Of a DNA stretch of 64,000 nt, positions 57,614 to 61,716 are shown one piece after another (position 1 is the first letter of the stretch; every line of letters starts with the position of its first letter). This DNA comes from Syncephalis fuscata (lineage: Eukaryota; Zoopagomycota; Zoopagomycetes; Zoopagales; Piptocephalidaceae): contig JAHLTZ010000026.1 of assembly GCA_025786725.1 (NCBI GenBank), positions 310,001-374,000 of the forward strand. Reading direction: 5' to 3'. Made by a program: the position numbers and the translations under genes. Under the pieces are notes generated by a model. It was not told the DNA's origin and did not search any database. It saw nothing but the letters and a program-made list of their open reading frames with translations.

Positions 57614-58393
57614 TTATTAAGGCTTTGATTTATTTTATTGTATAATATATATTGCAGTTTAATACAATAGTACTATATATATGATTATCATCAGTTGTTA
57701 ACACTAAAAAGTGGACACTTAATTTGTTGATGTACAAGGTAGCGAGAAAATAATAGACCTTGATAAACTACTTGCTATTACACTAAATATACTGCTTGTG
57801 TGTTTATTGAAATTGATATCGCGGTGTTATACCTTACAAAAGCTATTTTGTGGATAAACAATGATATATTGTATCGGAACTGGATAATAATAATAATAAT
57901 TTGTATTTGTTTAGTTTATTAACAAGGCAGTGGAAGTATTGCTTGTATGTTACCAAAGATTTTCTGTTATAGGATCGTTATTCTGGATATAATATATTTT
58001 TTTAAAATATTAGCATTACATCGTAGCATTTAATGCTGTCGCGCTATATTAGTAGACTAATAATAATACCAGTGGCTTATTTAGTATTATTACTACGAGT
58101 TTACATAGTTAAATAAACAACTGAATGCAGGCTTGTTGGTAATATAATAATGCATTGATTAAAAGCGGATAAATTGGAGTATTGGATGGAACTCGATATG
58201 AGAATGGACTAGAGATTGCCGTTAAGTGATCTTGACTTTTGCTAAATTTAAATACTTAAAGTATATTAAACTAACAGTTCAGTCCTATCACCAATACAGA
58301 TATCTTGGAAGCAACGCTTATTCTGTGTTCATAAACATATACAATCATGCAGTATAATTAGCATATGAAATATAGATATATGATGTCACTTAC
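57614..58393. other. Region downstream of micro-exon locus 2
   Basis: AT-rich. On the minus strand a further unit-like TAG|CAA|GTAGTT lies at 57,772-57,774 and a TAG|CTTTT|GTAAGG at 57,837-57,841 (5 nt, breaks frame). These may be outlying or decayed members of the chain at 58,394-59,337. No conventional exon could be identified. Confidence 0.3.
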
Positions 58394-59337
58394 AAGCTAT
58401 TAATATTAGATTTTAATATAAGTATTAAATATTATGTAATGGGCGTATTATTAACTAATATCTAATGTTACTTACGAGCTATCATTATGCTTAAATTGGT
58501 AATGCACGCAGTATAAATGATGGAATCAGCACATAACCAATTATATACGATATTACTTATGAGCTATTAGTGTTAAATTTTCAAAAACATATATGTATAA
58601 AGCCTGTTTAGTGAATAGTTAATTGATACAATTATTACTTATGACCTATAAAGTACATAGAAGTAATTAATATGTAAATACTCTATATGCATTGTTACCT
58701 ACGTCCTATTGATACAATTTATTAAACACACACACAATGTATAATATGTAATTGGCATGTAGTTAATTGATATACGATAAAACTTACGAGCTATTCGTGT
58801 TGGTTATTAAAGATACAGTATATAATATCTAATTAATACATCTTTAATCAAAACACAAAATTACTTACGGGCCATGAACGCTATTTTAGTTATACAAATA
58901 GTATTTAATTAGCTAAATAACTAATATTTTAGTTTTATTTTACCTCCTATTAATGGAAATTCAACATATTAGCACCATCAATACAATATTTTATTTATAT
59001 TTAATGTTAAGCCTACCTTCATTTAATGGATTTGATTTATTTATTATACATTAACAAATAGCCATTAATCAACACATCAAAAACATATATTTTTATTACT
59101 TACCAACTAATATAATGCATTTAAAGCGCACAGTAAATGTTGGGATAACTATTTATAATTGCGACTTACTGGCTAATATTATGATTAGTTAGTTATAATC
59201 TAGTACGTATGCCAATATGCACATTTGTTATGATTATAACATACCATGACGGGCTAGAACTGGATTAGCATCCACCATGGCTGTACTGACTACAAGGGCT
59301 ACGAGAATGTGCAGGTAACGGCAATAGAAAGCCTCAT
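58394..59337 (-). CDS. Putative secreted micro-exon gene, locus 2
   Basis: Exon 1 (59,245-59,337) resembles the signal-peptide exon at 26,791-26,884 (VSTAMVDANPVLAR against VASIAMVDDMPVLVR) and ends in phase 1 at GTATGT. It has a one-base deletion within the signal peptide. Minus-strand micro-exons follow, each after TAG: CCA (59,170-59,172), TTG (59,104-59,106), GAG (58,944-58,946), a 12-mer (58,869-58,880), CTC (58,788-58,790), GAC (58,703-58,705), GTC (58,643-58,645), CTC (58,561-58,563), CTC (58,476-58,478) and CTT (58,394-58,396). Most donors are GTAAGT; GTC and the CTC at 58,561 are followed by ATAAGT. The phase-1 joined reading is A-I-G-A-F-M-A-P-R-R-P-P-P, without stops. Most introns are 57-82 nt, and those near 58.4-58.8 kb share sequence, pointing to tandem duplication. 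The last exon is not found; the gene may be decayed. Confidence 0.45.
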
Positions 59338-59989: not shown

Positions 59990-61716
59990 TTAAATAATTC
60001 GTTGATTTTGTGACTGTTTACATTTGTCTTCACTTGCCCAATATTCCCGTACTTTATCCTTCTCTTTTTTCCGCTGATTCATATTTACTTGCTTAGAACT
60101 ATAATTCTTTTATAATCGTTAATTATTGTTGATTAAAATTATTCTATTCTTACTTGTAAACTAAATATGTCCGACTGATTATTGGTTTGATTCGGTACAT
60201 GCGGAACAAATATTCTTGGCGTTGACGCTAGCTTATCTAGCACTGACGTTGATGAAAGCTGTCCTTTCTTTTTAGATGACAATTTAGTAAAAAACTCTTC
60301 ATTTGTTTTTTGACATAATTCTTTTGTTAAAGCTTTGTTTTGTTTTGACGAAAGTGCCTGTTTGCTTTTTTTCTTAAATAACAATTCAGTAAAAAACTCT
60401 TCATTTGTTTTTTGACATAATTTTTTGTTAGAGCTTTGTTTTGTTCTGGCGAGACCGCCTGTTTGCCTTTTCGTTCAACTTTGGTGTTTACGTTATCATC
60501 ATCTAATATAACTGTAATAGATGTAGTTTTTCCCTTTGACTTATTTAAATATGAGTCCAGTTTTGATCTATGTTTGTATTTTCTTTGATAGATGCATTTG
60601 GCATTTCCAAGCAAGCTGTATCATTAGTGGATGTATTGGCACTATTATCAGTATCAGTAATACAAGTGTTTGTAGTGGTAGCATTATTAGTTGTCGTAGA
60701 AGTAACAATACTAGAGTGAGTATTGCCATTTTCATTGCTGATGATTTTAGCCATAGCAACATCAGTGACAAGATCTGAAGTTGTACAAGTCGGTGTATTT
60801 TCACAATCGTTGGAGATAATTGTGTCTACTTGACAACTGGCGCTAAAGATTCTGTAGTTATTTCTGTATTTAAATCCACAATCTTACTCCAATCAACCTT
60901 TTGCATCTTATTGGATAATGTTTCTACTGAATCGAGCACGTCATCTGAATGGCTTTTCATCTATTTAGCTGTCAGATACCATTATTACTATCGTTGTTAC
61001 AGCTCGCTATTTACCTCGTCCGCAACTGCTTTGCACATATCTATCATAAAAAATAAATGACCTGGAACTAATTAAGTAGCATTGCTTACCTGGATGATTG
61101 CCATTAGCTTTTTTTCTAGCAGGTTGGCTCTTTTATGCTCCCATGTTATAGTAGCTATAAAAGTTTTTAGTATAGCTTCATGGAAAAATAGACGTTGTTC
61201 CTCTGGCCCATTAAGCAACGAGTATGCATTGCGACAATCAAACTTCCAATCCAGAGTTTTGCCTCCAAACTTTCTAGAGACTTTTAAACTGATCTAAATG
61301 TATAATTGGATCAATATCTTGTCGATGAATTATATACAGCACTAAACACTTGCTTTATCATCTAATTCTTTATTAGTAAATACCACGCCTTTCTCCATAT
61401 TGAACATTTCAGCTAAAAAACACACTAGAATTTGTCGTTGATGAGTGTCACATGGCACCAAGTCATATTTGACATTCTAAATAACATTAATAAACCATTC
61501 ACAACATGGATACTTTACAAATACCTTGGCACGATTTGTTAAATCTTCTTTTTCGAGAATATCGACCCAACAATCATATAAATTAGTTAACATAAAGAGA
61601 TAGCCATCAGGTAGTATAATAAACTTATAAAACAACCGTTGCTTTATACTAGGTTTTTGGGCTGGTAATGATGTCCATTCAACATCGTTCAATCTAGACA
61701 ATAAATCTTTACGCAT
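59990..61716 (-). CDS. NHEJ1: XLF/Cernunnos (NHEJ1) non-homologous end-joining factor
   Basis: XLF bridges XRCC4-ligase IV filaments during double-strand break repair. The N-terminal head domain is clear: LNDVEWTSLPAQKPSIKQ, LFYKFIILPDGYLFMLTNLY with DCWVDILEKEDLTNRAK, YDLVPCDTHQRQILVCFLAE, KGVVFTNKELDDK, SLKVSRKFGGKTLDWKFDCR and FIATITWEHKRANLLEKKAN leading into a helical stalk. The long Ser/Thr-rich C-terminal tail contains two tandem 34-codon units (near 60,281-60,382 and 60,383-60,484) with QNKALTKELCQKTNEEFF in common. The end is basic (MNQRKKEKDKVREYW). The second intron has a GC donor (61,353). Three one-base deletions in the tail (60,830, 60,561-60,564 and 60,421-60,426) break the frame; each is fixed by one added A on the coding strand. 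Confidence 0.8.

Follow-up and report, generated by a model that had tools for sequence, protein, structure and literature searches.

Putative single-codon exon arrays in a family of small secreted-peptide genes of Syncephalis fuscata

A chain of micro-exons and its relatives in the genome

The window considered here (the whole stretch of Syncephalis fuscata DNA that was analysed, 64 kb long) carries on its minus strand, at 58394..59337, a chain of very short segments that lies behind a longer first exon and is followed by a candidate terminal exon. A preliminary description had placed ten segments there, all of 3 nt except one of 12 nt and all directly preceded by TAG, and this is what the sequence contains. 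Its tally of donors was right for GTAGGT (one), GTAAAA (one) and ATAAGT (two) and has to be amended for GTAAGT, which follows six segments, the 12-nt one among them, rather than five. The features of the locus are as follows.

59245..59337, minus strand: exon 1, leader and pro-region, ending ...CATG; frameshifted, with its second half reading ILVALVVSTAMVDANPVLARH in another frame
59239..59244, minus strand: 5′ splice site of exon 1, GTATGT, the same hexamer as in paralogues
59170..59172, minus strand: micro-exon CCA, flanked by TAG and GTAAGT
59104..59106, minus strand: micro-exon TTG, flanked by TAG and GTAAGT
58944..58946, minus strand: micro-exon GAG, flanked by TAG and the weak donor GTAAAA
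58869..58880, minus strand: 12-nt micro-exon CGTTCATGGCCC, flanked by TAG and GTAAGT
58788..58790, minus strand: micro-exon CTC, flanked by TAG and GTAAGT
58703..58705, minus strand: micro-exon GAC, flanked by TAG and GTAGGT
58643..58645, minus strand: candidate micro-exon GTC, flanked by TAG and the degenerate donor ATAAGT, probably not usable
58561..58563, minus strand: candidate micro-exon CTC, flanked by TAG and the degenerate donor ATAAGT, probably not usable
58476..58478, minus strand: micro-exon CTC, flanked by TAG and GTAAGT
58394..58396, minus strand: last micro-exon CTT, flanked by TAG and GTAAGT
58318..58322, minus strand: start of the terminal exon, acceptor ACAG and then AATAA, of which the first 2 nt finish a split codon and TAA is the stop, an arrangement shared with paralogues
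58090..58317, minus strand: 3′ UTR similar to that of paralogues, its extent judged by eye

It had also been held that the frame set by exon 1 is kept along the chain without a stop. This is true of the joined segments, which are open (AIGAFMAPRRPPP) when read with the final base of exon 1 as far as the TAA at the terminal exon, but not of exon 1 itself, where translation from the ATG at 59337 reads MRLSIAVTCTFS and is stopped after 12 codons by a TAG in frame. Since exon 1 measures 93 nt here and mostly 94 or 97 nt in the modelled paralogues, it must contain a 1-nt frameshift or a sequence error. With ATAAGT at two donors, GTAAAA at a third and an in-frame TAG in the 93-nt exon 1, the window gene is probably not functional; it is probably a decayed family member with a short proline-rich reading, or else a copy carrying a sequence error. 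In two similar array genes elsewhere (C135:166080 and C122:2175) exon 1 measures 92 nt (2 mod 3, where most are 1 mod 3). Its phase is therefore off, as in the window gene, and their micro-exons still read DPGNCEACVTKC. Upstream of the window gene, a 101-bp tandem repeat (2.1 copies) occupies window positions 60264-60471.

The argument that such a chain is not expected by chance holds up: TAGNNNGTAAGT (TAG-N3-GTAAGT) occurs 6 times in the 64-kb window against 0.65 expected, none of 100 dinucleotide shuffles reaches 6, and five of the six occurrences lie inside the 58394..59337 locus. The relaxed motif TAGNNNRTARGT is found 15 times in the window (3.4 expected), 8 of them within the micro-exon locus. 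Across the 28.95-Mb S. fuscata genome, TAGNNNGTAAGT occurs 4287 times as compared with 302 for the reversed control; a spacer of N4 shows no excess (431 versus 531 in the control) and one of N6 gives 494 versus 297. When the motif is extended to a donor, 55-80 nt, ATAG, N3 and a second donor, the genome holds 2742 occurrences and the control 2. Shuffles and genome controls together rule out a chance origin of the TAG-N3-GTAAGT arrays. The genome search for repeated TAG-N3-donor units that had been suggested beforehand returned many arrays behind a conserved leader exon instead of one isolated locus. As each of the seven arrays read to their end contains 16-23 strict pairs, the 2742 pairs translate into an estimated total of roughly 120-170 arrays. 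The longest run to 34 units behind the conserved leader exon, and the leader peptide itself has at least 150 matches in the genome, uninterrupted genes included (150 of 331 candidates were scored).

Some array genes form inverted pairs of closely similar copies within one contig, and some of these recur on short contigs. Such pairs are seen at 475-535 kb and 575-611 kb of C1, at 155-175 kb of C46 and at 418-476 kb of C57, as well as, by positions alone, on C234; they may be segmental duplications or haplotype copies. In loci L009 and L010 (C1, about 477500-478000) an insertion, recognised by eye, lies between micro-exons, and that of L010 ends in a tRNA-like stretch. The inserted sequence is probably a short element derived from a tRNA. 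Similar insertions are present in the arrays C35:47649, C135:94388, C135:144675, C135:166080, C122:2175, C251:19437 and C278:50300.

Anatomy of the array genes and codons formed across introns

The product of exon 1 is a near-constant leader such as MKLSIAVVCTIVVALVASTAMVDANPALVRR, which usually ends in a Kex2-like RR and whose signal-peptide character was judged by eye. Its length is 94 nt in 34 of the 49 modelled rows (among them the window's row, counted from a shifted start), 97 nt in 11, 115 nt in 2 and 92 nt in 2. The lengths of the exons that follow were obtained with a length-free model that allowed anything from 0 to 15 nt; in 57 stretches it returned 794 exons, 775 of them of 3 nt and 16 of 6 nt, the other three measuring 12, 1 and 2 nt. 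On the antisense strand of the same stretches it returned no unit. An artefact of fetching stretches by a 3-nt motif was considered and rejected, the lengths being the same in the 26 stretches labelled as fetched solely by another query, which runs from the end of exon 1 through intron 1 into the first unit and still favours genes having intron 1: these contain 352 exons of 3 nt, 16 of 6 nt and 1 of 2 nt. This exon-1/intron-1 query gave at least 40 matches (40 of 97 candidates scored), and all 30 of its fetched loci lie in stretches with at least three motif sites on the gene strand.

The introns are mostly 73-82 nt long. Among 637 introns of 60-95 nt, 541 begin with GTAAGT and 18 with GCAAGT, 628 end in TAG or CAG, and 469 contain a branch-site-like CTRAY at least 10 nt before their end, against 155 after shuffling. 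The arrays thus present the GT donor, branch-site-like motif and AG acceptor of spliceosomal introns, with a GC content of 24.6% in the introns and 48.5% in the micro-exons. By length, 224 of the 637 introns fall into class 0 modulo 3, 143 into class 1 and 270 into class 2. These boundaries bear on the notion that the units are joined at the level of DNA, by programmed DNA elimination as in ciliates instead of by RNA splicing, a notion for which the uninterrupted copies in the same genome might be cited. Elimination is hard to square with GT...AG boundaries accompanied by branch-site-like motifs, and the uninterrupted and array genes that were compared differ in their mature sequence; programmed DNA elimination is not known from any fungus, and we regard this explanation as scarcely credible.

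At the 3′ end, a rule that looks for an acceptor followed by NN-stop 50-120 nt past the last unit was applied to the 36 stretches that extend 190 nt or more past their last strict unit. It found a candidate terminal exon in 22 and none in that interval in the other 14, some of which carry an insertion. Of the 22 candidates, 17 sit at a distance of 69-72 nt and seem to be homologous, and five look spurious (two in C46, one in C72, and C57:417069 with its copy). Positional homology of introns among five arrays is weak except for intron 1, and an intact ancestral array is for this reason unreadable.

Since the introns lie in phase 1, a codon of the joined message would consist of the last base of one micro-exon and the first two bases of the next, which in the DNA are separated by about 80 bp. 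At the consecutive junctions of 36 de-duplicated genes, stops number 3 of 611 against 36.7 expected (z -7.4) and Cys codons 95 against 45.5 (z 10.1); lags 2 to 5 among the same genes show no such depletion of stops. The 637 adjacent pairs, whose tests are partly non-independent because units are duplicated within arrays, contain 90 Cys codons where partner shuffling predicts 49.7 (z 8.1) and 6 stops where 34.2 are expected, five of the six being true stops and one a short-exon artefact. In a thinned set of 272 pairs with introns less than 85% alike, the counts are 38 for Cys (19.0 expected) and 3 for stops (14.6 expected). For the alternative split phase, a depletion of stops is not clear (42 against 47.9).

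The preliminary description compared the chain with the micro-exon genes of schistosomes, in which skipping makes secreted proteins variable, and proposed an analogous diversity system. In such a system alternative skipping of triplets would give many peptide variants from one gene. Nearly all exons being multiples of three, the frame would indeed survive almost any skip. Selection, however, appears to have seen only one arrangement: stops occur at 44 of 554 single-skip junctions (34.4 expected) and at 43 of 506 double-skip junctions (31.6 expected), so that their avoidance is confined to consecutive junctions, and skipping would also break the spacing of the cysteines described below. That stops are few at consecutive but not at skip junctions implies that selection acted on an in-order, all-included message. 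The evidence consequently points to inclusion of all triplets in order, with diversity arising from gene copies and fast-changing triplets, and the proposal of diversity by skipping now looks improbable.

Joined peptides, uninterrupted paralogues and rate of change

When arrays are read to their last unit, six of seven give a mature peptide of the form C-x2-C-x3-C...C-x3-C...C. The joined peptides are GSYEECKACMVVCKDRGELSKEQCQGKCYNQC (C157), GESPCEECRSKCKEWKDYISACVFKCRQTEC (C66), SRDPAKCEECRKRCPKVYGTLFCVGLCSKYC (C24:653572), DPANCEACVKRCFATNPFWKTWGSYCRSDFCKDWC (C210) and GTVECKTCLSHCTRGGDTKKFCSIQCSHNYFPAQC (C154), of which last the sixth, C1:530224, is a near-copy; the seventh fully read array, C1:473895, contains a stop and does not show the framework. 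In C24:653572 and in C210 the run of units is broken once, by a gap of about 490 nt. The rule-based terminal exon is found in C66, C154, C1:530224 and C210 and was not found in C157 or C24:653572.

The cysteine spacing depends on the order of the exons. In 32 de-duplicated genes CxxCxxxC occurs 13 times, against 0.13 when exon order is shuffled, and stops occur 4 times against 37.6. These figures speak to the possibility that the arrays are a tandem minisatellite that happens to resemble splice sites and whose triplets are neutral. The units are alike, as such a repeat would have them, but neutral triplets would show neither avoidance of joined-phase stops nor enrichment of Cys; none of 5000 shuffles reaches the observed number of CxxCxxxC, and uninterrupted coding paralogues exist. 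We give a minisatellite very little credence.

Not every gene fits as well. CxxCxxxC is present in 17 of 49 modelled genes and a joined stop in 7 of 49, many of the models ending at the edge of the fetched stretch, and a profile built from six uninterrupted mature peptides prefers the true exon order (no more than 2 of 200 exon-order shuffles scoring as well) in 12 of 24 array genes. All three results weigh against the reading proposed below. Modelled genes with proline-rich, arginine-rich or other readings, including that of the window, look like other subclasses or decay.

Further information comes from family members that have no array. Twelve further leader loci were picked for a long open frame; two proved to be arrays (L079, L083), and ten are uninterrupted behind the same leader, six of them (L076, L077, L078, L084, L086, L087) with a mature region that starts CxxC(x3-4)C. 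In L076, GDRCTDCIDACTATKKNAVVCLNQCTNQKKCPA leads directly into sequence resembling that of the array genes' 3′ UTR after the terminal-exon stop; in L084 the open frame continues past the 3′ UTR-like point. An alignment of seven uninterrupted and four joined peptides, selected for the cysteine framework, has six invariant Cys columns. The same leader also heads uninterrupted genes with other mature types (L070, L071, L080-L082, L085 and the public proteins P0129, P0131 and P0132), some of which have further KR sites and are without the cysteine framework.

The shared framework also bears on recursive (ratchet) splicing, in which the units would be intermediate splicing points in one long intron and the triplets would be absent from the mRNA. 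Recursive splice sites have an acceptor and a donor almost back to back, and so do the units of the arrays. Exon 1 and the terminal exon alone would nevertheless leave nothing to code for a mature peptide. The very cysteine framework of the uninterrupted genes is found in the triplets, and recursive splicing is a highly improbable account. The triplets are instead almost certainly single-codon exons that are normally all included, given the avoidance of stops, the richness in Cys and the framework common to uninterrupted paralogues.

As to how the uninterrupted genes arose, the regions upstream of all four for which they were fetched match five array genes at 71-93%, depending on the segment, over up to about 800 bp. 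Simple retroposition, which would make these members processed retrocopies, is disfavoured because the upstream regions match those of array genes; intron loss in place fits better. Placed on an unrooted tree built from 48 leader regions, six uninterrupted genes need four changes, two of them forced by well-supported branches, with two of the six being long branches of unsure position. The tree fits repeated in-place loss of introns, with gain as a possible alternative.

Divergence between copies was measured in 10 chosen paralogue pairs. Triplets differ at 116 of 503 positions (23.1%) and introns at 1354 of 13176 (10.3%), a 2.2-fold difference that misalignment of repeated units could have raised. 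Splice sites differ at 1.4-1.6% (acceptors 8 of 488, donors 14 of 1036) and exon 1 at 2.8% (26 of 945). Triplets are more diverged than introns in seven of the ten pairs, including all five whose introns are more than 13% apart, and in the remaining three the triplets are identical. This pattern suggests that diversifying selection acts on the mature peptide while leader and splice sites are held fixed.

A proposed reading and its known parallels

We propose that these loci form a family of small secreted-peptide genes with arrays of single-codon exons, all included in order, whose product is a disulfide-rich peptide released at RR, and we put the probability of this reading at roughly 0.87. 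Computation establishes the arrays, the lengths of their exons, selection on codons across introns, a framework common to uninterrupted paralogues and the fast change of the triplets; for the steps beyond, arrays of single-codon exons are very likely and constitutive inclusion is likely. In an array gene, exon 1 would encode a signal-peptide-like leader and a short pro-region, usually ending in RR, and would be followed by up to 34 units, each an AT-rich intron of about 78 nt and an exon of 3 (sometimes 6) nt, before a terminal exon in which a stop follows directly on the first two bases. Removal of the introns would proceed one by one through intron definition, every micro-exon normally being included, and Kex2-type cleavage at RR would free a disulfide-rich peptide of about 30-35 residues, which may act on a fungal host or on competitors. 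Syncephalis species are mycoparasites (PMC6784888), and a host-directed effector or antifungal role for the putative mature peptides is plausible.

Beside the genes that fit less well, the 14 stretches where the rule finds no terminal exon and the three paralogue pairs with identical triplets, it weighs against the proposed reading that the removal of about 30 introns lying 3 nt apart is demanding for a spliceosome. We nevertheless consider it probable that in more than 100 genes for secreted cysteine-rich peptides some 30 one-codon exons are brought together by splicing out about 30 spliceosomal introns, that the unit of intron and codon serves as an evolutionary device whose gain or loss changes the peptide by one residue without a frameshift, that triplets outpace introns, and that complete in-place intron loss, more than once, gave rise to the uninterrupted paralogues. 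If true, the family represents an extreme of spliceosome performance and tests models of intron definition, with up to 34 introns three bases apart. It would likewise allow the evolution of rapidly changing secreted peptides to be followed naturally in a fungus that parasitises other fungi.

The family has so far been found by protein searches in S. fuscata alone. Searches of a set of 5.8 billion proteins returned 13 public relatives (3 of 3 matches in one search and 13 of 13 in the other), all of them S. fuscata hypotheticals. Two of them, P0123 and P0126, begin with a match to the leaders of two array genes and continue into other sequence inside the arrays, so that at least these two are models of array genes in which different sequence stands where the micro-exons belong; standard annotation can be seen from them to overlook such families. 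Searches of Pfam and PDB gave no convincing match, a Pfam scan of four family proteins yielding below-cut-off matches for three and none for one.

That a fungal secreted-protein family might be built from a leader exon and a chain of 3-nt micro-exons was the core of the preliminary description, and the arrays across the genome and their conserved signal-peptide-like leader support it. Its remark that its author had not seen such a system described is in keeping with the open-licence PMC papers that were listed, among which no account of consecutive 3-nt-exon arrays like those of S. fuscata was found. Individual elements of the design do have parallels. Cone-snail conotoxin precursors have a conserved leader, a dibasic cleavage site and a hypervariable, cysteine-framed mature peptide, and form a large family with ordinary exons. 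The array genes share this design of leader, dibasic site and cysteine frame with conotoxin and other animal venom precursors, but not the ordinary exon structure, and the organisms are unrelated.

The micro-exon genes (MEGs) of Schistosoma mansoni number 35 in the account of PMC10526429, with exons mostly of 15 bp (range 6-81 bp in its text, 3-81 in its abstract), introns of 0.1-5 kb and alternative splicing. Their products are secreted and have a conserved signal peptide, to which the leader of the S. fuscata family, signal-peptide-like by eye, may correspond. Both sets of genes are rich in very short exons whose lengths are mostly divisible by three, and both are hard to annotate automatically; they differ in that the internal exons of S. 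fuscata are nearly all of 3 nt, its introns are about 78 nt long and alike, and skipping is unsupported. Protein searches, which returned only S. fuscata proteins, and a Pfam scan of four family proteins found no sequence relation to MEG proteins. Aphid bicycle genes, with about 17 exons on average, phase 2 and a CYC motif, likewise make up a large and divergent set of putative effectors in which small internal exons are numerous and share one phase (PMC9168663); the exons of S. fuscata are in phase 1 and encode C-x2-C-x3-C...C-x3-C...C and not CYC. The protein searches found no homologue outside S. fuscata.

Other fungi offer micro-exons of a simpler kind. Xlr2 of Trichoderma virens, a transcription factor gene, shares with the array genes the presence of a micro-exon but has a single one, of 20 nt, regulated by glucose, and the 2024 paper that reports it states that a functional micro-exon was previously undescribed in filamentous fungi (PMC11121469). 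In lipS of Dactylellina haptotyla, two exons of 3 nt have been noted (PMC5639578). Isolated 3-nt exons are thus already known, and what would set S. fuscata apart is their consecutive arrangement into arrays that together specify the entire mature peptide, and this across a large family of genes.
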